This document shows, one piece after another, positions 10,865 to 57,413 of a stretch of DNA of 64,000 bases. Every line of letters starts with the position of its first letter. Position 1 is the stretch's first letter. Below the pieces are notes generated by a model. That model saw only the letters and a program-made list of their open reading frames with translations. It made no database searches and had not been told where the DNA came from. The position numbers and the translations under genes were made by a program. Origin of the DNA: Cephalotus follicularis (taxonomy: Eukaryota > Streptophyta > Magnoliopsida > Oxalidales > Cephalotaceae); contig BDDD01006683.1 of the NCBI GenBank assembly GCA_001972305.1, forward strand, positions 1-64,000, written 5' to 3'.

Positions 10865-12190
10865 TCAGGCATCAGCAGCAGGAGGGGCATCGGAATCGGA
10901 GGATTCATCGCCCGAAGTCTCTTTGCAACGATCAATAGTCTTGGAATCGGCAAGCTTTCGTTCCATTCTTTTGAGACGCCTCTTTACTACTTTTAGATCG
11001 TAGTAGATGGTGTCATCAACATTTTCGTAGTCGGAATGAAGTATTTTATGATCGTTCTCCAATCTAGTGAGCCGCGTGTTGACTTGCTCAAATTTATCAT
11101 CAAGCGAGGCTTGCATGGAAGCAAATTGAGAACGCATGAACTCCATCACCCTGTCATAATCAGTGGTGGATGAGGAGCTTTGAGCTTGAGGCTGAGCAGG
11201 TGCAGCTTCTTCATGTGCTTCCCAAGGAGGATTGTCTTCTTGCTCTTCCCTTGCAATCCTTTGCACTTGATCAATTTTGGGGCAATAAGTCCATATTCCT
11301 TCATGTTTCTTCCACCCCATCCGATTCAAAGTACTTATGTTGTACGTGTCCTCTTTCTTCAATTTGGTTGCTATCTCTCCTTCTAGCCGAATTTGATGAT
11401 GGAGAAAGACTTTGGTAAGGATAGAGCCGAAAGGTAAAACTGATTTCTTTTGTGAGAATGCTCTAACCATAGACTTGAGCATGAGGAGAGGAAAACAAAA
11501 CTCAATTTTAGAAAGGATGCACCACATTAGAAAAACTTGCATCCTAGACAACTTTGCATACCCTCCACCGGTGGGTAGAATTTGATGTACAATAAGATGG
11601 TGGAGAAGCCTATGGTCCACTGATAATCTATTGGTAGTCAGTGCCATATTGGGATGAACATTTGGATTATTTGGGTACAAAAGAGACAAAATATGGTTAG
11701 GGTGAAAACCCTCAACCTCCGGCCATTTTTTGTGTTTAAAAACATATAAACCGGTGTGTGGAATGTGTAAAATGGAAGCTAGAATCCTAGCATCTAGGTA
11801 AATCCTTTGCCCTTTAACAAAAGAAGAGAGGGCAAATTCCTCATTTTGGCTTGACACCATCCTAAGGTTAGAGTAAAATTCCTTGACCAATTTAATGTAA
11901 AAAGGGTCAGAAATTTGTACAAGGGGAATGAGATGGAGATCCTCTAACCAAGAAACGAAAGAAAACTCGGAAGAACAGAAATCCAAGTCGATATTTCTGC
12001 CTCCCATAACTCTTTTGTCAACAAAAGTTACACTTCTCAAAGGGACAGGGACTTGCTCTTCAGATTCTGAATCCGAGAGAGAAGGGTCGGGGGAAGACTC
12101 TCTAAGTTCAAGTCTCTGCTTTTTAGCAGATTTCTTAGGTTGAGAGGTAGAAGCAGCCTTCTTTTTGGCAGGTTGTTTTGTCCTAGGCAT
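10865..12190 (-). CDS. extra ORF of SIRE-like element, 441 aa, with H3-tail-like N-terminus
   Basis: This is an uninterrupted ORF downstream of RNase H, in the place of the so-called env-like ORF of SIRE elements. I start it at the ATG on the complement of 12188-12190. That gives M-PRTKQPAKKKAASTSQPKK, a basic tail resembling histone H3 (ARTKQTARKS), then a Ser/Glu acidic stretch (about residues 30-55). Residues about 60-290 match the 'putative plant transposon protein' type domain (LVKEFYSNLRMV, GQRIYLDARILASILHIPHTG). A Pro/Gln/Ser linker follows, then a C-terminal coiled coil (FEQVNTRLTRLENDHKIL...RRLKRMERKL) and an acidic end. I see no signal peptide and no convincing membrane anchor, so an envelope role is not supported. 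A nuclear or chromatin role is inference. An in-frame ATG 12 codons upstream is possible but less likely. Confidence 0.75.
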   Translation of the reverse strand: MPRTKQPAKKKAASTSQPKKSAKKQRLELRESSPDPSLSDSESEEQVPVPLRSVTFVDKRVMGGRNIDLDFCSSEFSFVSWLEDLHLIPLVQISDPFYIKLVKEFYSNLRMVSSQNEEFALSSFVKGQRIYLDARILASILHIPHTGLYVFKHKKWPEVEGFHPNHILSLLYPNNPNVHPNMALTTNRLSVDHRLLHHLIVHQILPTGGGYAKLSRMQVFLMWCILSKIEFCFPLLMLKSMVRAFSQKKSVLPFGSILTKVFLHHQIRLEGEIATKLKKEDTYNISTLNRMGWKKHEGIWTYCPKIDQVQRIAREEQEDNPPWEAHEEAAPAQPQAQSSSSTTDYDRVMEFMRSQFASMQASLDDKFEQVNTRLTRLENDHKILHSDYENVDDTIYYDLKVVKRRLKRMERKLADSKTIDRCKETSGDESSDSDAPPAADA

Positions 12191-32639: not shown

Positions 32640-33513
32640 TGTTGATGCAAAAATCCTTCCCTCAACAGTACCCCGCGTGTAAGGGCTTGATTTGTTAGGG
32701 AAACGTTGTTTTAATGCTCCGAGATGAAGGTTGACGATGATTATAAGTGTTTTCCCTGCACAGAAGAGCAAACACGTTGAAGGTCCAGGAGGTTATTCTC
32801 CCGGGGACACTCCGACGCTCAAGTTAGGCTTTGCACAGAGAAAACAAGGTTCTTTTAGATGTAAAAATGGCTAACCTGAGATATGTCTTTGATTCTTGTA
32901 TTTATAGTGCTGGTTTGTAACTGTTTGAGCGTGAAATGCGGAGGTGATAGCTGTCCCCTAAGGAAATGCCGAGGATCTCAGGATTTCCCTTATCTCCACC
33001 TGATTTGTCGCCACTTTCCTTGTAGATAGTTTATTATATCTCATGTTCCATATTTGGAAGAGGTGAATCCTTGGAAAGTAGGATGATTTTATGGTCTTGT
33101 CTTGCCGAGGATGAGGAGAGATAAATTCTCTTGTTATTTATCCACTTCAGGGTCTTCAACTTCAAAAGCTTCTTCAAGGGCTGGTGCCTGAAGCATTAGG
33201 TCCTCTGCCAAGCTGCCGAGGAAGAGATCTTTTACAGTGCAGTTGAGGAGGAGCCCATTGGCTAAGTCCTCGGCACTGATGCTGGAAAGGAGGTCCTCGG
33301 CGCTTATGCCGAGGAGGGTGGATTCCTCAACTCCACTAAAGGGTAGTTCCTCGGCACTGATGCCGAGGAGGATGTCTCTATCTGCTTCTCCTTCCAAGGC
33401 TTGATGAGCCTCCTCTGATCAGTATCCACATAAACTTTAAAGTCCCTAGACACTTGGCTATGTTCGCGGAGGACACGTGTCATCCTTGATATAAATTAAT
33501 TTTCCCCATATCA
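32640..33513 (-). repeat. G1 3' LTR
   Basis: This is an 874-bp LTR with near-identical partner 43130-44005. It contains two CCTCGGC-N6-GCCGAGG hairpins (33295-33314 and 33349-33368) and an ACACGTGT G-box (33473-33480). Confidence 0.92.
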
Positions 33514-34134
33514 TATGCTCCCCTGGTCCTTCTTCTCTGACCGTAGTCAGAGGAGGAGGAACAGAGCTGGGAGTCGTGACTCGGGCTGAACTCCTCTGGG
33601 AAACTTTTCATATGCTTTTCCTCGTGCGAAAGAGCTATGGTCTAAAGGTGTAGCTTTTGGTGATCCTCTGGCAAAGAACTGAGCTCGCCTTAGCAGAGGA
33701 TTGTAACTTGCCTCTTGTTTGGACCCATGTATGCTAACGGGCCTCGTGTCGCCAGCCCAAATCATTTGCATTTAAGTTGCGTATCGAAAAAGTTTTACAC
33801 GTGGCATAAACAGAGCGTTTCCCGCCTCTGTCTCTTGGTCTCCCGCGCCTGATTTGACCGTTCATTCCTCAGTCGTTGGATCCGTGCGATGTGGAGGGTC
33901 AGGATCCGAGCTACGAGTCTATAAAAGGGTATCTTTTGCCCAAAGCAAACCTTTCACTCCTTCAAACTCTTATCTTCGTCTTATTGCTGTGTGTTACTGA
34001 GATTTACAGTGCCTTCAAATCTTCATCTTCCTGCCATTCTTTCATCCAGATCTTTGGTAAGTTGCCACAGTCTTCTTGTTATTCTAAGCTCAACATAGGA
34101 TTTCTCTAGTTTCTTCTCTTTTCGTCTGACATAG
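33514..34134 (+). promoter_or_regulatory. antisense promoter and leader of G1 plus-strand gene
   Basis: A TATA box (CTATAAAAG, 33919-33927) stands about 210 bp before the first ATG, in a strongly conserved setting (ctacgagtctataaaagg) that recurs in G2 at 54781. The leader contains TTTG|GTAAGT (donor near 34047) and TCTGACATAG (acceptor ending at 34134), immediately before the ATG. An intron-like gap of about 85-90 bp therefore abuts the start codon. The region is the reverse of the one at 49695-50131. Confidence 0.75.
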
Positions 34135-35033
34135 ATGTCTAGAACTAAGCAAACTGCTAGGTCATCTCCTCCTTTAGAAGTCGAACCCCTAGCCATGGTG
34201 GTACCCACCGCCGAAAGTCCCCTCTCCTCCAAAGGTAGCCTGGGGGCTGCAGTGGGTGACCCTGCTGCTCCCATCGCCGAAGCTGACACCCTAGCCTCGG
34301 ATTGCTTTGGTGTTAGTACTCTTACTCGCAATGAGGTGTTAGAACTTTCTCGCAAGTATAATTTCCCTGCTGGGTTGAGATTTAGTCTCCCCTCGGATCC
34401 TTGGATGGTCACCGAGAGTAGGGAGGGCCACTTTGCGGTTTTCAAAGGTGCGCTGTCCCACGGCCAAAGGGTCCCAGTGCCCTCCTTCTCCATCTCGGTC
34501 CTAGAGGCATTCCATCTCCACCCTTCTCTTCTCCAACCCCAGTCTTGGAGCTTTATCATAGGCTTCCTAGTTAGGTGTCTAGAATCCGAGGTGAATGCAA
34601 CAGTGGGGCTGTTTAAAGAGTTCCATATCATCTCGTCCTCGCCAGGGGGGCGAGGATATTTCTTCAAGTCTCGCCCTGATATAAAAAAGCTTCTTACGAC
34701 CCCACTAAGTCTATCAAAAATTTGAGGAGGAGGTACTTCCTCGTAAAGAACTTCGAAGGGTTCACCCCCCCCCCTGCCTGGTGTGATTCTATGGAAACAC
34801 ATCCCCTTAACAGGAGGTCCCCCTTGACAACGGCAGAGAACATGGACCTCGACAAACTCTTGCACTTGGAGCTCGAGAAGTTGAACTCCACTGTGGTTGA
34901 GGATCGTCTGCTCCGAGTCAGGTTGAGCATAGTTCCCACCCGAGGATCATGCTCTGGAGATGTCAAGGACACCTCGGGGGGAGGGGGATCCCCAGATAAA
35001 CCCATGCCCCAAGTGCTGAGGAAAGCTGTATAA
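34135..35033 (+). CDS. G1 antisense ORF 1: H3-tail-like start plus 'putative gypsy type transposon' domain
   Basis: It begins M-SRTKQTARSS, which equals the histone H3 N-terminus (ARTKQTARKS) at seven of the first eight positions after Met. A Ser/Pro/Ala-rich linker follows. From about residue 55 comes the domain known as 'putative gypsy type transposon' (PF04195 type): LTRNEVLELSRKYNFPAGLR, LPSDPW, then VPSFSISVLEAFHLHPSLLQ and PQSWSFIIGFLVRCLES. The homologous ORF in G2 starts at 54997. Function is unknown. Position, strand and promoter fit the antisense ORF of Retand-type elements. Downstream of about 34700 the reading continues in a second frame before an intron-like spacer; I do not attempt to join them. 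Confidence 0.8.
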
Positions 35034-35130
35034 AGCCTTCTTGTCCTCCAGTTCTTGTCTTCATATTCCTTCTGTTTTCTCACTAACTGTTGCCATGCTC
35101 TTGATTTTTCTACCTCTTTTTTGTGCAGCG

Positions 35131-35703
35131 ATGGCTTCTCTGCGCGGATTCGACGCTCTCTTCAATGCTACCAAGATCACCAAACCTTCGTCTGCTGAAG
35201 GGTCCAAGCAGAAGGCCGCCGTGGAGGTGGCCAAACAAAAGGAAATGGATGCTGCCAAGGGGGCCAGGCAGAGGGTGAAGGCCGATACCGAGGGGGCCAA
35301 GCAAATGAAGAAGGCTTCTATGGCAGCCAAGGAGAAGGGAACAAAGCATCCTGCTGGGGGGCGTTCCTCTGGCGCTCCTCCTAGGCCTCTAAGCAAAAAA
35401 TGGAAGCACGCGTCCGAGGTTGAGGTAGAGTCTGCTCTCGACAGGACTTCCAACAACCCCATCATCTTACCTCCTCCTCGGGACGTAGAGAAGATGATCG
35501 AAGAGCTGGAGGTGGTGGGGAATGGGACTTCCAGCTTGGACAACCCCGGGGTTCCATTTGCTCTCAGCTCCCTTTGCCTTTTCCCTGACGAGCTGAAGGA
35601 GAGGAAGGACTGGACCAACAGGGACTTGATCCATAACTCCCTGCGGAGCCATTTCGAGGTAAGAGGGATCCTCTTCTTATGTGCTTTCCATTGTTCTTCT
35701 TAA
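35131..35703 (+). CDS. G1 antisense ORF 2: Lys/Ala-rich linker segment
   Basis: It starts MASLRGFDALFNATKITKPS, right after a pyrimidine tract and GTGCAG. It is dominated by repeats of the type (E/K)-G-A-K-Q-x-K (SKQKAAVEVAKQKEMDAAKG, then GARQRVKADTEGAKQMKKAS). The end part has PREVEKMIEELEVVGNGT-like and KDWTNRDLIHNSLRSHF sequence. A consensus donor (cgag|gtaaga, 35660) ends the conserved part; an acceptor (cttgtag) ends at 35766. It is probably a middle exon of the same antisense gene. The basic repeat suggests nucleic-acid contact, by inference only. Confidence 0.65.
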   Translation: MASLRGFDALFNATKITKPSSAEGSKQKAAVEVAKQKEMDAAKGARQRVKADTEGAKQMKKASMAAKEKGTKHPAGGRSSGAPPRPLSKKWKHASEVEVESALDRTSNNPIILPPPRDVEKMIEELEVVGNGTSSLDNPGVPFALSSLCLFPDELKERKDWTNRDLIHNSLRSHFEVRGILFLCAFHCSS

Positions 35704-35766
35704 GTGATTTCCATTCTTCTTAAGTGCTTTCCATTCTTCTCCTTACTTTTGTGTCTTTCTTGTAGG

Positions 35767-36590
35767 CTCTGAATGATCATCACCTCTTGTTCAAAAAAAA
35801 TTTGATCATCTTGGAGAGGTATGACAGAGCGAGGAAGGAGTTGATGGTGGAGATGGAGACCTCGCGCTTGGCTAAGGCGCGGCTCGAGGAAGTTCTCAAG
35901 GCCCAGGAGTCAGCTGTCGAGAAGAGAAACAAAGCCATCATGGAGAGGGACCAAATGATAAAAGACCTCTCCAAGATCGGCGACCATTACCGGACGTTGC
36001 ATAAGAAGCATGAAGACTCCGTCAAGAAACAAGAGGAGTTACGGGCCAAGGCAATGGAGGACGCCCTGGCGGAGTTCAAGTCCTCGGACGAATTCCACAG
36101 CTTGATGGAGGCCTTCGTGGAGGATTACAAAGCTTCAGAAGCCTTTGGTGATGAAGTCTTCAAGGAATCTGCCGAGTACTATCATCGGGGATTCTACACT
36201 TGCCGAAACTGGGTTAAAGCTCTTCATCCCGAGGTTCCATTGGGCGAGGTTGCCTACTTCTCGGCTGCCAAGGCCTTCGACTATTATCCCGACGGTTATG
36301 AAGTCAAGGAGGTGAAGGCTGAAGAAGCTTTGGAAGAAAGAAACGGCCAAGGGGCTGTGGAAGAGGGAGAGGAAGTCCAACCTGCCTCTGAAGCTGTAGT
36401 CGGCCAAGGAAATGAGGCTGGAGGAGATGGATCAGTCATGACGACCGTTCCTCTGTTGGATCCTGCGTTGGCCTCTGCTTCATTTGCTCCCTCCTCGGAT
36501 CTCATCATTCCTCAACCTCCTCAGACTGGACCTTTTGTACCTCCTCCTCCAGAGGATGAATCTTCTCTTGATTCCCCTCCTGCGGCTTAG
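35767..36590 (+). CDS. G1 antisense ORF 3: coiled-coil protein segment
   Basis: After the acceptor at 35766 the reading ALNDHHLLFKKNLIILERYD leads into a heptad-rich coiled coil (TSRLAKARLEEVLKAQESAV, EKRNKAIMERDQMIKDLSKI, HYRTLHKKHEDSVKKQEELR) of about 110 residues. A compact conserved block follows (SAEYYHRGFYTCRNWVKALH, then AKAFDYYPDGYE), and then an acidic/Pro tail ending EDESSLDSPPAA. This layout (transposon domain, basic linker, coiled coil) resembles many plant proteins annotated as transposase-like or 'putative plant transposon'. The G2 copy (56590-57413) is about 85-90 per cent identical by eye. Confidence 0.75.
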
Positions 36591-37440
36591 TTTTGTAGGC
36601 TAGCTTTAGTTTTGCCTTGTAGTAGTTTTTTTACTTCTCTTGTACTTGTAAACTCCTTTAAATATGAATGAGAAAAGGACCTTTTTGAATACTTGTATCT
36701 TTGCCTTTATTTTTTGTATCATGAGCTTGAAGTGTTTGCACTCTGCATATATATGTATGTTTACAATTCCCTTAGGAATTCTGTCTTTGCCCAAGTTACT
36801 GACTTCTCGTAGAAGTTAACACTCAAGCTTAATAGTCCTCGTAGGACATTTTATTTCAACTTAGTCTTTACGAGTTCTTTAGTGTTCGTAGACTAAGGTC
36901 TTGGTCTGCTCGGATAAGTTCCTATGGGTTTGCCGAGCAGTGTATCGTCTGACCCATTAGATTTTACGACAGGTCGGCTGAGCTTGCAGTCCGCGTAGGG
37001 ACACTTGTATGAAAGTGCTCAGTCCGACGAGCTTGATCATTGCGAGTTTTCATGGATTCGCCTTTCAAGACACGATTTTAGGTCTGGTCGGTCAAGTTCC
37101 TATGGTGTTGCCGACCAGTGTTTGCTCCTTGGGGAGTCTTAGTGCTTCCTTGCAAGTCTTTTGGTGTTCCTCTGAAGGAGTCTTTGTTGATAAGTATAAA
37201 TATGCTCCTCGGAGGGAGTCTTTGGTGTGCTCCTCGAAAGGAGTCTTGTTTACCCTTGGTCTGTTGGAGACCTCGGCTGGCGTTTGTTCTTTGCTGAGGG
37301 AGTTGATCGGTGGCTGTTCAGAGGTTTGAGGACATGAACATTGGATCTCCGGTCCCTTGCAAACTTGGAACTATGATGTTGATGAACAAGTATTTTGAAA
37401 AATTTTGTTTCATTGATGTCTAAATTCGTACAATTTACAA
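36591..37440. other. G1 convergent 3' region between antisense gene and integrase
   Basis: This holds the 3' ends of two opposing transcription units. It contains 'cctcgtaggac' and 'gctcctcgga' type short repeats, with three loose copies of a ~30-bp unit at about 37150-37250 that is expanded in G2. No gene is seen. Confidence 0.6.
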
Positions 37441-38654
37441 TCATTGATAATACTTCCTCAGATGCTCGGCATTCCAAGCTCTGGCAATCTCCCTACCCCC
37501 CAAATTTTCAAGTTTGAATGTTCCTGGGCGGAGGACCCTCTTGATTTTGTATGGCCCTTCCCAGGTAGGGGCTAGTTTTCCTCTAGTACCGGTTCGATCT
37601 GCAATAGCTGAGTTGCGTAGGACTAGATCTCCTTGTCTTAGTGGTCTGGGCTTACCCTTTTGTTATAGTAGTGGCTCACCCTCTGCTGGTAGGCTGCAAC
37701 TCTGATCGCGGCCTTGTCTCTGAGCTCTTCCACCAAGTCGAGGAGGCATCTAAGCCCCACTTCATTGTTGTCTTCAGTGAAATGTACAACTCTTGGTGAT
37801 TGTACTCCAATCTCTACCGATATCATGGCTTCAGCTCCAAAACAAAGGCTGTATGGCGACTCACCAGTTGTTGTCTGAGGAGTGGTTCTATATGCCCATA
37901 GTACACTTGGTAGCTCCTCTGTCCATCTTCCTTTGCTGTCTTCGAGGTGCTTCTTCAGACCCGAGATGATTTCTCTGTTGATCATCTTGGCTTGACCGTT
38001 GCTTTGGGGATAGGCCACTGAAGCAAGCCTATGCTCTATCCTCCACTCCTTGCAGAAATCACGGAAGGCTTGGCAATCAAACTGTTTACCGTTGTCTGAG
38101 ACGATTATCCTCGGGACTCCAAATCTACAGATGATTGACTTCCATACGAAGCTCTCCGTGTTCTTTTCAGTAATTGTGGCTAGAGGTTCTGCTTCCACTC
38201 ACTTGGTAAAATAGTCCACTGCCACAATGATAAACTTCCTCTGGCCCGTCGCCATGGGTAGTGGTCCGACGAAGTCCATTCCCCATTGTGTAAAGGGCCA
38301 TGGGGCCGTGATAAACGTCAGAGGTTGAGAAGGTCTTCTACTTATGTTTGCATTCCTCTGACACTTGTCACACTTTCTTACCAAGTCTATAGCATCTTGG
38401 TGCATGGTCGACCAAAAGTAACCCTGCCTGAAAAGTTTGTGGGACAAGGTTCTGCACCCAGTGTGGTTACCGCAGATTCCTTCGTGGACCTCCCTTAGAT
38501 CATAATCGGCCTCTAAGGGGTTCAAGCATCTCAGCCAAGGAAAAGAGAAAGATCTTTTATAGAGGATTCCATCTCGGAATTGGAATCTGTTTGCTCTGTA
38601 GACCAGTTTCCTCGCTCCACGGGGTCCTCGGGCAGGATCCCATTTCTCAGTCAA
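37440..38654 (-). pseudogene. G1 integrase
   Basis: The HHCC zinc domain is visible as HEGICGNHTGCRTLSHKLFR and then CDKCQRNA. The core follows with MDFVGPLPMATGQRKFIIVA (first D), then PRIIVSDNGKQFDCQAFRDF (second D), then YPQSNGQAKMINREIISGLK (E). The C-terminal domain has NKRVSP and, further left, the GPYKI..V..GTFKLE type block with NAEHLRKYY at its end. This is full Tat-type integrase order; the copy is broken. Confidence 0.88.
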
Positions 38655-40487
38655 TTGATAAAGGGAGTCATCCAGTTTGGCTCATGTAGTACATCTATGT
38701 CCATTACATCTACTTCAGAGAAGGTGGGCCTATCCAGGTAGTCTACAAGCACGGTTTGATTTTTCTCTAGTTCCTCCGCCGTTGCTAGTTTTGATAACTG
38801 GTCTGCTCGGACGTTTTCTGCTCTGGGTACTTTCAAAATTCTTAAAACCTCGAATGCTGACTTCATGCCCTGAAAATGGGACAAGTATTTCACCATAGGG
38901 TCTTCTCGGGCCTCATACTCCCCATTTTCCAGACCAATCACTAACTGAGAATCACTGGAGGCTTCTATCTTTTGCACCTCCAAGTGCTTTGCGATCGTCA
39001 GTCCAGCTATCAGAGCTTCCCACTTAGTTTCGTTGTTTGTAGCTTTAAACTTAAACCTTGGAGCATACTCCAACGTCCAACCATCTGGGCTTGTCAATAC
39101 CAGTCCTGCTCCACTGCCAGTGATGCAGGAAGAGCCATCCACTGACAATTTCCATATCCCCTTCTCGTTCTCGGAAGGGTTCTCCTTCAAACACTCCGTA
39201 GGTGTATTATCTCCAACAAAGTCGGCCAGTACCTGTGATTTGATTGCTGGTCTGGCTTTGAACTTCACATCATACTCGCCTAGTTCAACTGACCACTTTA
39301 TTAATCTGTCCGAGGTATCGGGCTTCGCAAGAACTTGTTTGAGTGGTTTGTCAGTCAGAACCTTGATTGTATGGGCTTGGAAATATGGCCTCAGTTTTCT
39401 GGCCGAGATGATCAAAGCATATGCGAACTTCTCCACCTCTGGGTACCTCCCTATCGGCATCGTTCAAAGCTTTGCTCACGTAGTATACTGGCTTTTGAAC
39501 TGTTTCCTCTTCTCTGACTAGCACTGCACTCACTGCGCCTGAGGTGGCTGCAAGGTACAAATACAAGTCTTCCTCATCCTTAGGTTTTGAGATCAGAGGA
39601 GGGGAAGCCAGGTATTCCTTCAACTTGTTGAAGGCTGCTTGAAAGTCGTCTGACCAAGAAAATCCCTTGGGATCTTTGAGTATTTTGAAGAAGGGAAGGC
39701 ACTTCTCTGCAGACTTTGACACAAACCTGCTCAGGGCTGCAATATTCTCATTTAACCTCTGAACATCCCTGATGGTTTGAGGAGGCCTCATGCTTTGGAT
39801 TGCCGAGATCTTCTCTGGGTTGGCCTCTATTCCCCTGCTGGAGACTCCGAGGAACTTGCCAGAGGTGACCCCAAATGTGCACTTGGATAGGTTGAGCTTC
39901 ATGTTGTATCTCCTCAGCACCTCAAACGTTTCCTCCAAGTCTTTTATGTGGGGGCTCCTGGCCGGGGTCTTGAGGAGCATGTCGTCGATGTAGACCTCCA
40001 TATTTTTCCCAATCTAAGGCTCAAAGATTTTGTTCACCAGACGTTGGTAGGTGGCCCCTGCATTCTTCAAGCCGAAGGGCATAACCTTGTAGCAATACAT
40101 TCTTCGGTTCGTGATGAATGTTGTCTTGTTCTCGTCGGACCCGTACATGGGAATTTGATTGTATCCCGAGTAAGCGTCCAAGAAGCTTAACATTCTGTAA
40201 CCTGAGGTCGCATCCACCAACTGGTCTATCTTTGGGAGAGGGAAGTGATCCTTTGGGCAGGCTTTGTTGAGGTCTGTGAACTCGATACACATTCTCCACT
40301 TGCCATTTGCTTTTTTGACTAGTACTGGGTTCGCCAGCCAGTCTGAGTAGTGCACTTCCCTTATGAACCCTGCCTGCAGAAGCTTGCTCACCTCCTCGGC
40401 TATTGCTTGTTGTCGCTCAGGGGCAAAGTTCCTATTCTTCTGCCTGGTCGGAGGACTCATCGGATCCACACTTAGTTTGTGAACCAT
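38651..40487 (-). pseudogene. G1 reverse transcriptase, RNase H and second RNase H
   Basis: RT blocks: VHYSDWLANPVLVKKANGKW, then CIEFTDLNKACPKDHFPLPK, then KVMPFGLKNAGATYQRLVNK, then the catalytic MEVYIDDMLLK. RNase H blocks: KGFSWSDDFQAAFNKLKEYL and KLRPYFQAHTIKVLTDKPLK. A second RNase H of the archaeal type follows (KLSVDGSSCITGSGAGLVLT, then FKATNNETKWEALIAGLTIA, then IEASSDSQLVIG). This is diagnostic of Tat-lineage gypsy elements and thought to have been acquired from a host-like source. Confidence 0.9.
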
Positions 40488-40757
40488 GACGTTAGGGCTG
40501 ATCCCAAAGACCTCCTCTGCCGACCTGGCAAAGACATCTTTGTTATTTCAGAGGAATGTTATTAATTCCCCCTTCTCCACCTCTCCAAGCTGTGAGACAA
40601 CTTGGAACACTTTTTCAGTGTTGCCCTCTTCCATGGGCACTTGGACCACGTCCTCAATAGGCTGTGGACGCTCGGGTTCCATGTCTCCTCTAAGCTCCAC
40701 GTTCGCTATGAGAAGTACCTTATCCTTCCCCTTATCCGAGATGGCAGTTCTGTAACA

Positions 40758-41440
40758 CTACCTTGCTGCCTGTTGGTCTCCTCTGACTTCCCCCATACCA
40801 AATCTCGTTGGAAACTTCATCAACAAGTGTCTCGTAGACACTATGGCCTCCATTAAGTTCAGACCTGGTCGCCCTATTATGACATTGTAGGGGCTGGGTG
40901 TGTCCACCACCAGGAATGTCATCTCTACCTGAGTCTGGTGTGGGGTCGTGCCTGCAACCACGGACAGGTTGATGGATCCCAGAGGATGGATCATCTCGCC
41001 TGCAAAGCCAACTAGTGGGGTCTTCACGGGCTTCGACTGGTCTACCGGTATCACCAGCTGATCAAATTCCTGTTTGTATAGATATCGGTCGAGCTGCCAC
41101 TGTCTATAAGGACTCTCTTCATGGTGAAAAGCTCCACCAGAAGAGTTACCACCACTGGATCATCGTGAGGGAGACGTACTCCCTCATAGTCTGCCTCCGA
41201 GAAGGTTATCACCTCCTCGTCTCCACCAGTTCTCAGCCTTTTGCTATGATGGACTTGTTGCACAGTAAGGGACTGTCTCCGATAGGCTTTTCTTGCATTT
41301 TTGTGGTCGCCACCAGATGCGACCCCCCCAGAGATGGTGTGGATGACACCTCTGGGTTGTTGTTGTTGCTGCTCCTCTTGTTGTCGGGGAGCCTCTTCTC
41401 TTCTTTGCTCCCTCCTTCCTTGGGGAGCATCTCTGTCCAC
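40758..41440 (-). pseudogene. G1 aspartic protease region
   Basis: The active site is FTMKRVLIDSGSSTDIY (DSG), preceded by DDPVVVTLLVE. Downstream blocks are TPLVGFAGEMIHPLGSINLS and FLVVDTPSPYNVIIGRPGLN, the ILGRP-type flap and psi loop of Tat proteases. It releases gag and pol products in the particle. Confidence 0.85.
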
Positions 41441-41491
41441 ATAGTTGCGCAGATGTCCCTTTCTAATCAGGTCCTCAATCTGATTCTTCAG

Positions 41492-43084
41492 CTACCTGCA
41501 CTCCTCGGTATCGTGCCTGTGGTCACGTTGGTACCGACAGTATTTCTCTAAGTCCCTCTTCTCTGCCGGGGACCTCAACTTCTCAGGCCACTGGAAATGG
41601 ACCTTATCTTGCTCCACAGCAAGTATTTTGGTGCGTGTGTCCAGGAGGGGGGCAAAGTTGTTGTAGGACGGGATTGGTACCCCTCCCCTGGATGAACTCT
41701 CACGTTTGGAGAGTTTATGTCTAAGGTCTTCCTTGGTCAATTCCGACCTTTCCTTCCTCTTCTCTTTCCTCTCGGGAACATTTCGTGAATGCTCCCCTTT
41801 CTCCTCCTGATGGCCTGACCAGGGTGTCTTTTGTTTCCTGGCTGCCATCTCTTCCTCGACGTTGACATATCTCTCTGCCCTTATCAGCAGGTCTGCCATG
41901 TCCACCGCGGGTTTCTTCAAAAGAGAGAAGGTGAAGGGAGAGTTACTCCTCAGCCCGTTGTTCAAAGCTGTCAGTGCAAAGGATGGCTCCAGATCTTTCA
42001 CTGTGAGAGATTCCTTGTTGAATCTGGTGAGGTAATCTCTCAGCGACTCATCTCTACCCTGCACTACATTGATCAGGTGCGTAGAGTTTCTCCTCTGCGC
42101 GGTGCTGTTGAGAAACTTGGTTACGAACAGTTCCGTAAACTGATCGAAGGTCTCCACCGAATCCTTTGCCAAGGTGAAATACCATGACTGCATAGCTCCA
42201 GTCAAGGTCGTAGGGAATCCTCGGCAAAGTGTCGCGTCCAAGGTTTGGTACATCCACATGGCTTGAATGTAAGAACGCACATGTTGGATGGGGTCCGTGG
42301 ACCCGTCATATTTGTCCAGGCTTGGGATCTGAAACCCGCTGGGAACATGCTCTGTCATGATCTCGGATGGGAAGGGGTGGGCGCTGATGTTGTGCACCTC
42401 GGATAGATGTCCCCCGTGTTGTTCCGCTCCTCGGAACCTTCTTTCCAACTCAGTAAGCTTTCTGTTCACCGATTGCTCCATATCCTCTATGTTCCTAGCC
42501 CTGCTAGAAACACGTGACCCTCCAGCCACTGTAGCTGGGGGGTCGACCCTGCTTCCTCGAGCCGTGCCAGCTCTGCCCGGGGCATCAGAGCGTACTTGTG
42601 CCTCCTCTACTCCTTTGGCTTCCTCCCGAGGATCTACATCCATGGCCTGGTGTTTAGGGCGCGTCCTCCTAGGATCGTTGGGTTGATCCCGGGCAGTCGA
42701 GAACTCTGCCCTCTGAGATCCATTGATCTCAGGTCTCCTCCCCAGGAGAATATTATCCCCTGACCGCCTTGGGGGTAGTCGGTCTCCCCTCAGTGGGTTT
42801 TTCCTGACACCTCATGGATGTCGTGTCTCCACCCCTAGTCTGCTGGGACCAGAAACTCCTCGGACCACTTGCGGGATAGGCCTGGCTTGCTGCTGGTGGG
42901 CCAAAGTAGTGACCAACAAATCGGTGAGGCGCTTCGTCCCTAAGACTAACTGATTGAGCTGCTCCCCTGTGACGGGAGCTTGCTCTTGGGCCACAGCTTG
43001 GACGGCATCTGGGAGAGGAGGTGTGATCTCCTGTTGTTGACTGCCTGTGGCTCCAGGCTGGTTGTTGTTCTTTCTCAGAGGCAT
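41492..43084 (-). pseudogene. G1 gag
   Basis: The start is MPLRKNNNQPGATGSQQQ, close to the primer-binding site. The capsid core reads DPIQHVRSYIQAMWMYQTLD, CRGFPTTLTGAMQSWYFTLA, then FVTKFLNSTAQRRNSTHLIN and GRDESLRDYLTRFNKESLTV. The knuckle-like block CRYQRDHRHDTEECRQLK is the C-H-H-C form typical of Tat gag. Together these give a full-length Tat gag layout with a Gln/Arg-rich linker before protease. Confidence 0.88.
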
Positions 43085-43129
43085 GATTGTTGATAGTTTT
43101 TTGCTGCGTTTCCCACAGACGGCGCCAAC
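43085..43129 (-). promoter_or_regulatory. G1 primer-binding site
   Basis: Read on the minus strand, the LTR end (CATCAACA) is followed by a one- to two-base spacer and TGGCGCCGTCTGTGGGAAA (about 43110-43128). This is the GGCGCCGT-type primer site widely seen in Tat/Athila elements, not an initiator-Met site. Confidence 0.8.
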
Positions 43130-44005
43130 TGTTGATGCAAAAATCCTTCCCTCAACAGTACCCCGCGTGTAAGGGCTTGATTTGTTTAGGGAAATGCTGT
43201 TTTAATGCTCTGAGATGAAGGTTGACGATGATTATAAGTGTTTTCCCTGCACAGAAGAGAAAACACGTTGAAGGTCCAGGAGGTTGTTCTCCCGGGGACA
43301 CTCCGACGCTCAAGTTAGGCTTTGCACAGAGAAAACAAGGTTCTTTCAGATGTAAAAATGGCTGACCTGAGATATGTCTTTGATTCTTGTATTTATAATG
43401 CTGGTTTGTAACTGTTTGAGTGTGAAATACGAAGGTGATAGCTGTCCCCTAAGGAAATGCCGAGGATCTCGGTATTTCCCTTATCTCCACCTGATTTGTC
43501 GCTACTTTCCTTGTAGGTAGTTTATTATATCTCATCTACCATATTTGGAAGAGGTGAATCCCTGGAAAGTATGCTGATTTTATGGCCTTGTCCAGCCGAG
43601 GACGAGGAGAGATAGATTCTCTTGTTATTTATCCACTTCAGGGTCTTCAACTTCAAAAGCTTCTTCAAGGGCTGGTGCCTGAAGCATTAGGTCCTCTGCC
43701 AAGCTGCCGAGAAAGAGATCTTTTACAGTGCAGTTGAGGAGGAGCCCATTGGCTAAGTCCTCGGCACTGATGTTGGAAATGAGGTCCTCGGCGCTTATCC
43801 CGAGGAGTGTGGATTCTACAACTCCACTAAAGGGTAGTTCCTCGGCACTGATGCCGAGGAGGATGTCTCCATCTGCTTCTCCTTCCAGGGCTTGATGAGC
43901 CTCCTCTGATCAGTATCCACGTAAACTTTAAAGTCCCTGGACACTTGGCTATGTCCGCGGAGGACACGTGTCATCCTTGATATAAATTAATTTTTCCCCA
44001 TATCA
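43130..44005 (-). repeat. G1 5' LTR
   Basis: This is the 876-bp partner of 32640-33513, with a TATA-like 'tatttataatg' on the plus strand and the same hairpin and G-box features (ACACGTGT at 43964-43971). The TATAT target copy follows at 44006-44010. Confidence 0.92.
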
Positions 44006-44280
44006 TATATAAACATTGCTTTGTTTATAACCAGTGAACCTAGTTTTATCGTTGTTAATGTCTACTACCTTGCAATGAGATTTTTCAAAAACAACTCTAT
44101 AACCCTTGTCACATAATTGACTAATGTTCAAGAGGTTATGTTTGAGTCCATTAACATATAATAAATTATTTATTTGGGTAGAATCATTACTTATGGAGCC
44201 AATTCCTTCAATTTTTTCTTTTGCATTATCTCTAAAGGAAACTTATCCTCCATTCTTTGGCTTCAAGGTGATAAATTAAA
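44006..44280 (-). pseudogene. copia protease/pre-integrase relic (SIRE type), minus strand
   Basis: This is the continuation of the SIRE-type sequence cut by G1. The minus strand carries the region equivalent to 14104-14400 of the other SIRE element (NLLSISQLCDKG-like block; DNAKEKIEGIGS-like protease block). The plus-strand RT of the same family begins immediately to the right, so orientation switches here. Confidence 0.7.
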
Positions 44281-48891: not shown

Positions 48892-49694
48892 TGATAGAGG
48901 AAAAATATGCTTATAATATCAAGGACACGTGTCCATTCCACACTTGACCAACTGTCCATGGGAGATTAGAGGCTTATTAGCAAAGCGTGCCGAGGAGCTC
49001 ACTCATGACAAAGAATCGTCATCTCGGACCAAGAGCCAAGGATTATTACTTTTCGAAGACAACACTCTGAGACCACAAGTCCGAGAACACTCCTCAGACT
49101 CGAAGGCGAAAGATCATATTCACGGTGCGAGGGCCGAGGACTCCCTCGGCCCAAAGTACCTATCGGGTGGAGAACAGGAGATACGGACTCCTGTTTACAG
49201 AAGCTGAGGACCTCTTCCTCGGACGAACTCATATTTGTTCCATCCTCGGAACCACAGCAGAGACCCTCTTTCCTCTGCAGACATGCCACAACCAATATCA
49301 TCCTATAATGGAGGACCTCAACCTTATCTACGGGATAAGGAGATTATCTTCACCAGATTCCATGGGATCCGTACCTATCCAAACAAAGAGTTAGAGTTCA
49401 AGTCAACTACTACTAAAGGAAAGTAGCTACAATATAGGCGGAGATAAGGGAATGTCCGAGATCCTCGGCACTTCCTAGGGGATAACGATCAGATCCGATT
49501 CACACGCTCAATCAGTTACAAAAATCCACTATAAATACAAGTTCAACATACTGAACAAAGGTCAGCAATTTTTACATTCAAGAGAGTTCAATATTTCATC
49601 TGCACTTGACTAACTTGAGCGTCGGAGTGTCCCCGGGAGAACAACCTCCTGGACTTCCACCATTGTCGTTACTTGTGCAGGTGTCCGAGATCAG
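48892..49694 (+). repeat. E3 left LTR
   Basis: It carries the 12-bp palindrome GGACACGTGTCC (48923-48934, G-box/ABRE core CACGTG), a TATA-like 'tataaatacaag' near 49532, and the 'cgtcggagtgtccccgggag' block shared (reverse) with G1 LTRs. Confidence 0.85.
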
Positions 49695-50131
49695 TTTCCT
49701 AAGTGAAGAACCAAGGCTTTTATAGGCCCTTTCCTCGGATCCTAGCCATCCACCTCACATCAGATCCAACGGTGGGAAGTCTGACCATCAAATCAAGCGC
49801 GGGAAACGAAAAGGCAGATGAGGGAATTGCTCTGAGCATGACACGTGTAAAGCGTATTTAATACGCAACTTAAAGGATAATCATAACGGTTCAATACTCG
49901 AGATCTGTTAATGGCTGTGAAGGCAGACCAAAGGCCAAGAGTTAGGTCTCGGCTCAAGCAGACTATGTCATGCGTCAGAGGAGCCACCAAGACAATGCTC
50001 TCGTCCTCGACCAATTTGTATAAGCAAGAACTACCCAGAAGTATTGCAGAGGAGTTTTGTCTGGGCCACGGCTCTCAACTCTGGTCCTCCTCCTCTGACC
50101 AAGCTCAGAGAACAAGGACCAGGGGGGCATA

Positions 50132-51029
50132 TGATGGAGGAAAAATATGTTTATAATATCAAGGACACGTGTCCATTCCACACTTGACCAACTGTCCATG
50201 GGAGATTAGAGGCTTATTAGCAAAGCGTGCCGAGGAGCTCACTCATGGCAAAGAATCGCCATCTCGGACCAAGAGCCAAGGATTATTACTTTTCGAAGAC
50301 AACACTCTGAGACCACAAGTCCGAGAACACTCCTCGGACTCGAAGGCGAAAGATCATATTCACGGTGCGAGGGCCGAGGACTCCCTCGGCCCAAAGTACC
50401 TATCGGGTGGAGAACAGGAGATACGGTCTCCTGTTTACAGAAGCTGAGGACCTCTTCCTCGGACGAACTCATATTTGTTCCATCCTCGGAACCATAGCAG
50501 AGACCCTCTTTCCTCTGCAGACATGCCACAACCAATATCATCCTATAATGGAGGAACTCAACCTTATCTACGGGATAAGGAGATTATCTTCACCAGATTC
50601 CATGGGATCCGTACCTATCCAAACAAAGAGTTAGAGTTCAAGTCAACTACTACTAAAGGAAAGTAGCTACAATATAGGCGGAGATAAGGGAATGTCCGAG
50701 ATCCTCGGCACTTCCTAGGGGATAACGATCAGATCCGATTCACACGCTCAATCAGTTACAAAAATCCACTATAAATACAAGTTCAACATACTGAACAAAG
50801 GTCAGCAATTTTTACATTCAAGAGAGTTCAATATTTCATCTGCACTTGACTAACTTGAGCGTCGGAGTGTCCCCGGGAGAACAACCTCCTGGACTTCCAC
50901 CATTGTCGTTACTTGTGCAGGTGTCCGAGATCAGTTTTTTCCTCCAGGCATCAGTGACAAAGCGTTTCTCTTAACAAATCAAAGTCCTCCACGTAGGATA
51001 CTGTTGAGAGAAGGATTTCTGTATCAACA
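50132..51029 (+). repeat. E3 right LTR
   Basis: About 99 per cent identical by eye to the left LTR over their shared length, including GGACACGTGTCC (50163-50174). It ends with 'ggatttctgtatcaaca', the reverse complement of the TGTTGATGCA start of G1 and G2 LTRs. Confidence 0.88.
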
Positions 51030-51034
51030 ATAAA

Positions 51035-53399: not shown

Positions 53400-53518
53400 A
53401 CAAAAATCATATATAGGCTTATTACATGAATGTGGGTCTCTTAGCTAAGCACAACTTGTAAGTAAAATACTAATGATAACACTCCCCCTCAAGTTGAGGC
53501 ATACATATTGTTGATGCA
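53400..53518. mobile_element. small copia-type internal/LTR fragment flanking G2
   Basis: The words 'aatgataacactccccctcaagttgaggcatacatat' are a common signature of the region next to the LTR in some plant copia elements (there read as the complement of a polypurine tract and its surroundings). G2 begins at 53519, directly after it. Confidence 0.4.
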
Positions 53519-54376
53519 AAAATCATTCCCTCAACAGTACCCCGCGTGTAAGGGCTTGATTTGTTTAGGGAAACGTTTTTTTAATGCTCCGAGATGAAGG
53601 TTGATGATGATTATCCCTGCACAAAGTAGCAAACTCATTGAAGGTCTAGGAGGTTGTTCTCCCAGGGACACTCCGACGCTCAAGTTAGACAATGCACAGA
53701 GAGTTCAAGGTTCTTTCAGATATAAAAATGGCTGACCTGAGATATGTCTTTGATTCTTGTATTTATAGTGCTGGTTTGTAACTGTTTGAGCGTGGAATGC
53801 GGAGGTGATAGTTGTCCCCTAAGGAAATGTCGAGGATCTCGGGATTTTCCTTATCTCCACCTGATTTGTCGCTACTTTCCTTGTATGTAGTTTATTATAT
53901 CTCATCTTTCATATTTGGAAGAGGTAAATCCCTGGAAAGTAGGCTGATTTTGTGGCATTGTCCTGCCGAGGGCGAGGAGACATAGATTCTCTTGGTATTT
54001 ATCCACATCAGGGTCCTCAAGTTCCAAAGCTTCTTCTAGAGCTGGCGTCTGAGGTATTAGGTCCTCTGCCGAGTTGCCGAGGAGGATATGTTCTACAGTG
54101 CGGTTGAGGAGGAAAACCTTTGGCTTGGTCCTCGGCACCGATGTTGGAAAAAAGGTCCTCGGCACTTATGCCGAGGAAGGTGGACTTTACAACACCAATA
54201 ATGGGGAGTTCCTCGGCACGGATGCCGAGGAGGGTGTCTCCATCTGCTTCTCCTTCCAGGGCATGATAAGCCTCCTCTGACCAATATCCATGTGAACTTT
54301 AAAGCCCCTAGACACTTGGCTATGCCCGCGGAGGACACGTGCCATTCTTAATATAAATTTGTTTTTCCCCATATCA
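53519..54376 (-). repeat. G2 3' LTR
   Basis: An 858-bp LTR (TGTTGATGC...CCATATCA) similar to the G1 LTRs. It includes the tcctcggc...gccgagga hairpins (around 54150-54230) and a G-box-like ACACGTGC (54334-54341), where G1 and E3 have ACACGTGT. Confidence 0.9.
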
Positions 54377-54996
54377 TATGCCCCCCTGATCCTTCTTCTC
54401 TGACCATAGTCAGAGGAGGAGGAACAGAGCTGGGAGTCGTGACTCGAGCTGAACCCCTCTGGGAAACTTTTCATATGTTTTTCCACGTGCGATAGAGCTA
54501 TGGTCTGAAGGTGTAGCTTCTGGTGATCCTCTGACAAAGACTGAGCTCGCCTTAGCAGAGGATTATAGTTTGCCTTCTGTTTAGACCTATCTCTGCCAAC
54601 GGGCCTCGGGTCGCGAGTCCAAATCATTTGCATTTAAGTTACGTATTGAACACGTTTTACACGTGACGTGTACGGAGCTTTTCCCGCCCCTGTCTCTTCG
54701 TCTCCAGCGTCTGATTTGACCGTTCATTCCCCAGCCGTTGGATCTGTGCGATGTGGAGGGTCAGGATCCGAGCTACGAGTCTATAAAAGGATATCTTTTT
54801 CTCAAAGAAAACATTTTATTCTTTCAATCTCTAATCTTCGCTTGTTGCTGAGAGCTACTGAGATTTACAGTGCCTTCAAATCTTCATTTTCTTGCCATTC
54901 TTTCGTCCATATCTTTGGTAAGTTGCCACAGTCTTCTTGTTGTTCTAAGTTCAGTCTAGGATTTCTCTAGTTTTTTCTTTTTTTCGTCTGACATAG
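54377..54996 (+). promoter_or_regulatory. antisense promoter and leader of G2 plus-strand gene
   Basis: The TATA box CTATAAAAG is at 54781-54789, again about 215 bp before the first ATG. GTAAGT (donor at 54918) and TCTGACATAG (acceptor ending 54996) frame a 79-bp intron-like gap that touches the ATG at 54997. Both signals are conserved between G1 and G2. Confidence 0.75.
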
Positions 54997-55894
54997 ATGG
55001 CTAGAACTAAGCAGACTGCTAGGCCATCTCCTCTCTTAGAAGTCGAACCGTTGGCCATGGTGGTTCCCACCGCCGAAAGTCCCCTCTCCTCCGAAGGTAG
55101 CCTGGGGGCTGCGGTGGGTGACCCTGCGGCCCCCATCGCCGAGGCTGACACCCCAGCTTCGGATTGCTTTGGTGTTAGCACTCTCTCTCGCAATGAAGTG
55201 CTAGAGCTTTCTCGCAAGTATAACTTCCCTGTTGGGTTGAGATTTAGTCTCCCCTCGGATCCTTGGATGGTTACCAAGAGTAGGGAGGGCCTCTTCGCGG
55301 TCTTTGAAGGTGCACTTTCCCATGGCTTAAGGGTCCCCATGCCCTCTTTCGCTATCTCGGTCTTAGAGACTTTTCATCTTCACCATTTTCTTCTCCAACC
55401 TCAGTCTTGGAGCTTTATCATAGGCTTCTTGGTTAGATGTCTAGAATCCGGGGTGACTGCAACAGTGGGGCTGTTTAAAGAGTTCCATGTCATCTCGTCC
55501 TCGCCAGGGGGGGCGAGGGTACTTCTTCAAGTCTCGTCCTGGTACCAAAAAACTTCTTTTGAACCCCACAAAGTCCATCAAAAATTGGAGGAGGAAGTAC
55601 CTTCTCATAAAAAACTTCGAAGGGTTCACCCCCTCTGCCTGGTGCGATTCTATGGAAGCACCACCTCTTAACAGGAGGTCCCCTTTGACAACGGCAGCGA
55701 ATGTGGACCTCAGCAAACTCTTGCTCTTTGAGTCCGAGGAGGTGAACTCTACTGTGGTCGAGGATCGTCTGCTTCGAGTTGGGCTGAGCGTAGTTCCCAC
55801 CCGAGGATCCTACTCGGCAGATGTCGAGGATGCCTCGGGGGTGGGGGATCCCCAAATAAACCCATGCCCCAAGTGTCCGAGGAAAATTGTATAA
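54997..55894 (+). CDS. G2 antisense ORF 1: exact H3-tail octapeptide plus 'putative gypsy type transposon' domain
   Basis: It begins M-ARTKQTARPS. After Met removal the first eight residues equal those of histone H3 (A1-R8), including K4; residue 9 is Pro instead of Lys. The linker PLLEVEPLAMVVPTAESPLS leads to the domain (PF04195 type): LSRNEVLELSRKYNFPVGLR, LPSDPW, MPSFAISVLETFHLHHFLLQ, PQSWSFIIGFLVRCLES. The DNA start (atggctagaactaagcag) also resembles a plant H3 gene start, but nothing beyond it encodes a histone fold. The homologous G1 ORF keeps the motif. The reading changes frame after about 55510; I do not join it further. Confidence 0.8.
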
Positions 55895-56524: not shown

Positions 56525-56589
56525 GTGAGAGGGATCCTCTTCTTATGTGCTTTCCATTATTCTCCTTACTTTTGCGTCTTCCTTGCAGG

Positions 56590-57413
56590 CTCTGAATGAT
56601 CATCACCTCTTGGTCGAAATTTTTTCGATCATCTTGAAGAGGTATGACAAAGTGAGGGAGGAGTTGATGGTGCACATGGAGACCTCGCTCTTGGCCAAGG
56701 CTCGGCTCGAGGAAGTCCTTAAGGCCCAAGAGTCTGCTGCGGAGGAGAAAAACAAAGCCCTCATGGAGAGGGACCAAATGATAAAAGACCTCTCCAAGAT
56801 CGGTGACCAGTACCGGACGTTGCACAAGAAGCATGAAGACTCTGTCAAGAAACAGGAGGAGTTGCGGGCCAAGGCAGTGGAGGACGCCCTTGCGGAGTTC
56901 AAGTCCTCAGACGAATTCCACAGCTTGATGGAGGCCTCCGTGGAGGATTACAAAGCTTCAGAAGCCTTTGGTGATGAAGCCTTCAAGGAATCCACCGAGT
57001 ACTATCGTCAGGGATTCTACACTTGCCGGAACTGGGTTAGAGCTCTTCATCCCGAGGTTCCCTTGGACGAGATTGCCTACTGCTCGGCTGCCAAGGCCTT
57101 CGACTACTATCCCGACGGTTATGAAGCCGAGGAGGTGAGGGCTGAAGAAGCTTTGGAAGAAAGAGCCGGCCAAGGAGTTGTGGAAGAGGAAGAGGAAGTC
57201 CAACCTGCCTCTGAAGCTGTAGTCGGCCAAGGAAATGAGGCTGGGGGAGATGGGTCAACTGCGGTGACCATTCCTCTGTCGGACCCTCTGGTAGCCTCTG
57301 CTTCGCTAGCTCCCTGCTCGGATCTCGTCACCCCGCAACCTCCTCTGACTGGACCCTTTGTTCCCCCACCTTCAGAGGATGAACCTTCTCTTGATGCTCC
57401 TCCTGGAGCTTAG
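56590..57413 (+). CDS. G2 antisense ORF 3: coiled-coil protein segment
   Basis: It reads ALNDHHLLVEIFSIILKRYD and then a coiled coil (TSLLAKARLEEVLKAQESAA, KNKALMERDQMIKDLSKIGD, YRTLHKKHEDSVKKQEELRA). The conserved block TEYYRQGFYTCRNWVRALHP follows, then AKAFDYYPDGYEAEEVRAEE and an acidic/Pro tail ending SLDAPPGA. Length and order equal the G1 segment; this part is uninterrupted in both copies. Confidence 0.75.

Follow-up and report, generated by a model that had tools for sequence, protein, structure and literature searches.

The antisense proteins described in this study, which are encoded by a family of retrotransposons in the genome of Cephalotus follicularis, carry an N-terminus that resembles the tip of histone H3, a trait that extends across the family in the one genome examined and that is under constraint at the level of the protein. 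In our preferred interpretation, which we hold with moderate confidence, the protein of this antisense accessory open reading frame (aORF) would start with a selected imitation of the H3 tip, by which it engages host proteins that read or modify the N-terminus of H3. The underlying sequence is found in the window, by which we refer to the whole stretch of 64,000 nucleotides that was analysed, where the codons ATG GCT AGA ACT AAG CAG ACT GCT AGG at 54997-55023 of the + strand encode M ARTKQTAR. We take the eight residues following the initiator to be residues 1-8 of histone H3, as found in textbooks, and the same identity is evident from seven H3 contaminants in prokaryote records described below. 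The features of this element are as follows.

53509..54379, - strand: long terminal repeat (LTR) adjoining the aORF, the 3' LTR relative to gag-pol
54997..55671, + strand: aORF, first open frame, 224 codons
55000..55023, + strand: ARTKQTAR codons, equal to H3 residues 1-8, immediately after the start codon
55303..55491, + strand: Transposase_28 domain (TRP28, PF04195), aORF residues 103-165
56547..57413, + strand: downstream open frame, 288 codons
58516..63535, - strand: gag-pol remnants, on the strand opposite to the aORF

An initial sequence-only reading had claimed that the exact H3 octapeptide opens an antisense protein which is not a histone but contains a gypsy-type transposon domain, and both statements hold, the 224-codon frame beginning with the octapeptide and matching PF04195 (E 6.8e-8, 33.1 bits compared to a curated cutoff of 26.2). 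With the aORF on the + strand, gag, reverse transcriptase and integrase on the - strand and the LTR at 53509-54379, the frame is placed between pol and the 3' LTR. By domain and layout it is a PF04195 reading frame of the kind that Retand-type gypsy elements carry antisense to gag-pol. The gag-pol remnants comprise gag (PF03732), reverse transcriptase and RNase H (PF00078, PF17919, PF17917) and integrase (PF17921, PF00665). No histone fold was found in the aORF beyond the tail, PF04195 being its sole Pfam match up to E 1, and a sequence search of the PDB returned a single weak and unrelated match (E 1.2); the predicted structure has a mean pLDDT of 39.9, a value too low for a comparison by fold. 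The downstream frame at 56547..57413 is likely a later exon; as read by eye, it contains a charged stretch of helix-like character, and it has a weak match to PF06217 that falls under the cutoff of this Pfam family.

The window contains a second element.

32640..44008, - strand: second element, its aORF antisense to its gag-pol frames
34135..34725, + strand: aORF of the second element, start MSRTKQTAR

Its LTRs, at 32640-33516 and 43130-44008, are 95.6% identical. The frame of the 54997 copy departs from that of the 34135 copy near codon 172, which marks the former as degenerate. Over codons 1-170 the two copies differ with a dN of 0.051 and a dS of 0.358 (ratio 0.14), but since the linker (codons 10-60) shows a similar ratio of 0.13 and the tail alone differs by a single silent and a single amino-acid substitution, the pair is too small a sample of tail changes to reveal special constraint. 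Between both elements, at 49405-51032, we observed reverse-oriented pieces that are 72-78% identical to the LTR of the aORF family.

The distribution of the tail was investigated by pattern searches, with control patterns used in the assembly. In the window, a degenerate tail pattern with up to two mismatches had no matches beyond 54997 and 34135 (chance expectation 0.02). In the 1.577 Gb Cephalotus assembly, DNA coding for ARTKQTA[R/S], the exact degenerate pattern allowing Arg8 to read as Ser as well, was matched 572 times and the reversed control not once, in line with the claim of the sequence-only reading that the octapeptide is unlikely to have arisen by chance, and ATG plus tail with up to two mismatches gave 4075 matches compared to 17 for the control. 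We examined 49 of the 572 exact-tail places (48 fetched and the window's own), a set that, having been picked for the exact tail, informs on clade spread and silent codon change and not on frequency. All 49 run on as aORF linker, 30 of the window type, 17 of clade B and two of clade C, with none continuing as H3, and 47 have an ATG immediately 5' of the tail. Silent codon changes between types A and B amount to a mean of 5.4 in 24 nt. At residue 9 we found V, P, A, S, T or Q, with K in one place only; its codon in clade B is CAA, one change from the AAA of that single copy. Ser10 equals the H3 residue in 30 of 30 window-type places.

Outside Cephalotus, the MARTKQTAR pattern had 10 matches in a collection of prokaryote species comprising 257 Gb (uniform chance expectation 1.9). 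Seven of them run on as eukaryotic H3 and are eukaryotic contamination, two have the exact tail in short frames (19 and 28 codons) and one is a Ser variant, which leaves as base rate two exact N-termini outside H3 in 257 Gb of prokaryote DNA, both in frames of less than 30 codons. The contaminated records, each containing the start of a eukaryotic H3 gene, are seven prokaryote genomes (L003, L004, L006-L010). The same pattern had no match in IMG/VR, where a peptide-pattern search matched five stretches, none of which encodes a relative of the aORF. All chance figures for the tail are to be read in light of the many other famous motifs that could equally have caught notice.

Searches of protein collections based on shared five-residue words retrieved 17 distinct PF04195-type relatives, all from Cephalotus, and none shows an H3-like tail at its annotated N-terminus. 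In four of these (P0001-P0003 and P0017) the start Met corresponds to residue 21 of the window protein, and they resemble the tail-lost cluster described below. The deposited Cephalotus gene models of the family (L019-L160, P0001-P0017) begin at downstream methionines, and the tail is for this reason hidden in protein databases.

An estimate of how widely the tail is retained requires copies chosen without regard to it. A pattern for the core of the TRP28 domain (LQ.QSW.F) had 5921 matches in the assembly compared to five for the control, and in the first 100 of these places we searched the region 200-700 nt upstream. The best match to the 26-nt pattern of ATG plus tail had no mismatch in five copies, one in 10, two in 32, three in 17, four in seven and five or more in 29, so that 71 of 100 copies contain the tail within four mismatches, compared to 1.4 per 100 for codon-permuted tails. 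The N-terminal region is kept in 93 copies, and the seven in which it is not recognisable (L086, L108, L118, L132, L134, L140, L158) did not enter the counts of residues. Identity to ARTKQTAR in the 93 is eight residues in five copies, seven in 40, six in 16, five in 15 and four or fewer in 17; in 56 an uninterrupted frame connects the tail to the core. The sequence-only reading would have been undermined by a motif missing from most members of the family, which for the near-match is not the case, since at least six of the eight residues are matched in 61 of 93 copies, the exact octapeptide being found in merely five of 100.

Conservation is unevenly distributed along the tail. Ala1 is found in 78 of the 93 copies, Arg2 in 74, Thr3 in 62, Lys4 in 72, Gln5 in 67, Thr6 in 77 and Arg8 in 73. 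Substitution by another basic residue is rare at positions 2 (K in five), 4 (R in one) and 8 (K in three), illustrating that it is the exact basic residue that is kept and not charge alone. Gln5 is replaced by R in 13 copies and by L in 10, and at position 7 K and A are found in 26 copies each, S in 16 and other residues in 25; a Glu at position 4 is found in three of four copies of cluster 1 and in three of 33 of cluster 3. The rule of the family is A-R-T-K-Q-T-x-R, with position 7 free and K9 not kept. In this respect it is not supported that the family conserves an exact copy of H3, in light of the free A7, the frequent replacement of Q5 by R or L, the variable residue 9 and the existence of one cluster without a tail, whereas an H3-like N-terminus that is family-wide and kept at the protein level is supported. 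The tail-lost cluster comprises 12 of the 93 copies (L083, L084, L097, L099, L102, L104, L109, L127, L133, L151, L152, L160), which have MASQE-like N-termini in place of ARTKQT. Its distance of 0.31 from the tail-bearing cluster 3 in the TRP28 region makes it a natural loss experiment.

Constraint on the tail is reflected in the ratio of non-synonymous to synonymous polymorphism (pN/pS) within clusters. Without position 7 it is 0.23 in cluster 3 (n=33), to which the type of the window belongs, 0.09 in cluster 5 (n=17) and 0.16 in cluster 9 (n=10), compared to 0.29-0.51, 0.18-0.33 and 0.47-0.53, respectively, in three stretches of the linker; with position 7 the tail values are 0.31, 0.08 and 0.29. 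The codon-bootstrap range of cluster 9 without position 7 is clear of all three linker stretches and that of cluster 5 is clear of the first, one of the three overlapping it, whereas in cluster 3 the difference is small and the ranges overlap. The supposition that tail codons might change as freely as those of the linker is thus contradicted in clusters 5 and 9 and left standing in part in cluster 3. For these codons the tail-lost cluster has a ratio of 0.39, or 0.59 once position 7 is included, and its TRP28 stretch is still constrained (0.27). As copies were sampled by an exact core, pN is lowered close to that core, whereas the tail is not affected. Since the pS of the tail, at 0.50-0.65, is similar to or above that of other stretches, the constraint acts on the protein and not on DNA or RNA.

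A comparison between clusters, based on 757 pairs of 48 open tail-bearing copies from which the tail-lost cluster and broken copies were excluded, leads to a similar picture. In the DNA of the TRP28 region, distances among the seven largest clusters are 0.30-0.47. Identity in the tail is 0.65, or 0.73 if position 7 is disregarded; it falls to 0.26 in the first and 0.21 in the second eight-column block past the tail and reaches 0.79 in the core. Constancy is highest at residues 2, 4, 6 and 8, with values of 0.81-0.83, compared to 0.66, 0.60, 0.60 and 0.10 at residues 1, 3, 5 and 7, respectively. This alternation resembles a strand that is read from one face, a resemblance that is suggestive only, as C-to-T decay hits Thr and Ala codons too. 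Pure chance as sole account of the tail was considered and is ruled out by the pattern counts relative to their controls, the tail-blind sample, the constraint and the identity between clusters. Selection on the tail does not, in turn, imply that its H3 likeness is more than coincidental, and a chance likeness of a selected tail is compatible with the counts.

The region preceding the ATG was inspected for signals of expression.

54782..54787, + strand: TATAAA, candidate promoter element, 215 nt 5' of the ATG
54918..54996, + strand: putative 5' UTR intron, GTAAGT at 54918, AG at 54995-54996 adjoining the ATG

There is no ATG between the TATAAA and 54997, and a TATAAA is present in seven of nine distinct exact- or near-exact-tail sequences examined. 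A GTRAG is located 60-95 nt 5' of the ATG in 52 of 93 sampled copies. The AG right before the ATG is found in 21 of 33 copies of cluster 3 and eight of 10 of cluster 9, whereas 15 of 17 copies of cluster 5 have CC or CT at this place, which counts against a 5' UTR intron as general property of the family. In the window copy, the putative TATA box and a possible intron ending at the ATG suggest that the aORF would be a gene of its own, in which this ATG comes first.

In the mechanism that we propose, in which translation from the tail-bearing ATG, exposure, binding, target and effect are steps that we infer, the protein, once its initiator Met is cleaved off, would present A1-R2-T3-K4-Q5-T6-x-R8, carried by a long variable linker that precedes the TRP28 domain. 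The tail would then dock into a host pocket by which the H3 N-terminus is read or modified, candidates being PHD fingers of the UHRF1/VIM or H3K4 type and demethylases of the LSD1 type, and the remainder of the protein, which is predicted to bind DNA and whose counterpart in maize Grande is reportedly nuclear, might carry the bound factor to the DNA of the element or, alternatively, keep it off chromatin. The residues concerned, R2-T3-K4 of H3, are exact at the N-terminus of the window copy and are found in 74, 62 and 72 of 93 copies.

The main alternative to this proposal is a tail that was selected as basic N-terminus with another job, such as nuclear import, contact with nucleic acids or stability, whose likeness to H3 is coincidental. 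We regard this as a realistic possibility, although one that we do not favour. Selection on the tail is silent about its binding partner, position 7 is K as often as A and Q5 is replaced by R in 13 of 93 copies, changes that raise the basicity of the tail and might render it similar to a nuclear localisation signal; moreover, an Ala following the Met is frequent in plants and ARTKQT[A/K/S]R is simply close to ARTKQTAR. The same genome also provides, in an unrelated Transposase_32 family of accessory ORFs with the variable basic start M[PV][RK][TS]K..KKK, an example showing that basic RTK-like starts are not rare in such proteins. It is difficult to reconcile with such a role that R and K are swapped in only five, one and three of 93 copies at positions 2, 4 and 8, that the neutral Thr6 is kept in 77, although an import signal would require neither Thr6 nor a fixed choice between R and K, and that the tail is located at the extreme N-terminus. 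We thus favour mimicry because R2, K4, R8 and Thr6 are kept and fixed behind Met-Ala, and because the kept residues correspond to the part of H3 that is gripped by readers of its N-terminus. Mimicry, for its part, has to accommodate that exact H3 identity is not maintained, that K9 is not kept, that one cluster persists without a tail and that the window's own cluster 3 keeps it only slightly better than the linker.

Two further accounts dispense with a present function in mimicry. The start of a host H3 gene might have been captured and have later drifted at positions 7 and 9, as would fit an identity that begins exactly at the start codon, the H3-like Ser10 in all 30 window-type places and the residue-9 codon of clade B, a single change away from the Lys codon of one copy. 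The absence of H3-like sequence past residue 10 and the fact that clusters in which position 7 is K or S are as frequent as those with A speak against this account. In the form without present function it is highly improbable; capture as origin is compatible with present mimicry. Still less probable is a functionless tail that persists by common descent only among recent, decaying copies. Although the copies do share ancestry and many have decayed, with 56 of 93 still open between tail and core, the separation of clusters by 0.30-0.47, the low identity of the columns past the tail (0.21-0.26 against 0.65) and silent sites in the tail that are as diverged as those in other stretches all speak against it.

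The Transposase_32 family referred to above is represented in the window.

10868-12190, - strand: Transposase_32 (PF20167) accessory ORF, start MPRTKQPAKKK, beside a copia reverse transcriptase (PF07727)

Among 120 relatives listed of 364 found, 119 are Cephalotus proteins with up to 92% identity and the other is the window's own, and 43 of these 120 passed a filter for a full N-terminal tract. In the 43, position 1 is P in 27, V in 15 and L in one, position 2 R in 38 and K in five, position 3 T in 36 and S in seven, position 4 K in 42 and N in one and position 5 Q in 18, R in 18 and another residue in seven. R-T-K is mostly kept, with variable positions 5-7 and neighbours that are variable and basic, which admits two readings, convergence on the signature of H3 or, as a caution, a general abundance of basic RTK-like starts in such proteins. 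The combined scenario, in which the aORF protein would be an anti-silencing mimic that occupies a reader of H3, such as a PHD finger of the VIM/UHRF1 type, with Transposase_32 proteins converging on R2-T3-K4, appears unlikely to us, albeit conceivable.

Collectively, a selected H3-like start on the antisense protein of a retrotransposon suggests that such elements may imitate histones to engage chromatin proteins of their host. If true, retrotransposons would join viruses in histone mimicry, with a family of at least 5921 TRP28-core sites in a single genome, and accessory proteins of transposable elements could provide natural tools for probing the plant proteins that read the N-terminus of H3. 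Known viral and host histone mimics include influenza NS1 and G9a, which like the aORF contain a short H3-like stretch in a non-histone protein, but which do not carry a copy of the N-terminal residues 1-8 on a retrotransposon antisense protein. Another comparison is with SNAG-domain proteins, whose N-termini imitate the H3 tail towards LSD1. In these, as predicted for the aORF, an H3-like N-terminal peptide is attached to a DNA-binding protein, although they are animal transcription factors with other residues past position 3. With respect to the proposed outcome, the comparison extends to VANC proteins, in which we know of no H3-like tail. VANC are anti-silencing proteins of the VANDAL transposons of Arabidopsis (PMC5735166, PMC10398659), which are transposon-encoded and act on host silencing, as we propose for the aORF, but which belong to a DNA transposon and bind DNA in sequence-specific manner.

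The PHD finger of UHRF1 binds the ARTK of H3 and the VRTK of PAF15 (PMC8034647), and mouse DPPA3 competes for and displaces UHRF1 via a VRT motif (PMC11187062). PAF15 with its free N-terminus and DPPA3 with an internal motif thus likewise imitate H3 residues 1-4, as A-R-T-K or V-R-T(-K), but both are mammalian host proteins, whereas the aORF protein is encoded by a transposon, extends the likeness to residue 8 and is known from its sequence. Plant VIM proteins retain the PHD finger, and whether a mammal-like mechanism operates in plants is described as unknown (PMC8594673). In titles and abstract openings of the literature on histone mimicry and plant transposons or Transposase_28, which included few subscription papers, no H3-like tail is described, and the words 'histone' and 'mimic' are absent from the main text of two reports on Retand-type elements (PMC11963269, PMC7264820), the available portions of the former containing no discussion of an N-terminal tail. 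The antisense reading frames of the Retand lineage encode PF04195 (TRP28), are located between pol and 3' LTR and are predicted to bind DNA (PMC11963269), and the function of Retand-type antisense proteins is stated to be unknown in the portions available of both reports. With these proteins the aORF has the PF04195 domain and the antisense position in common, and a conserved mimic of the H3 tip would offer a concrete and cheaply testable function for them.
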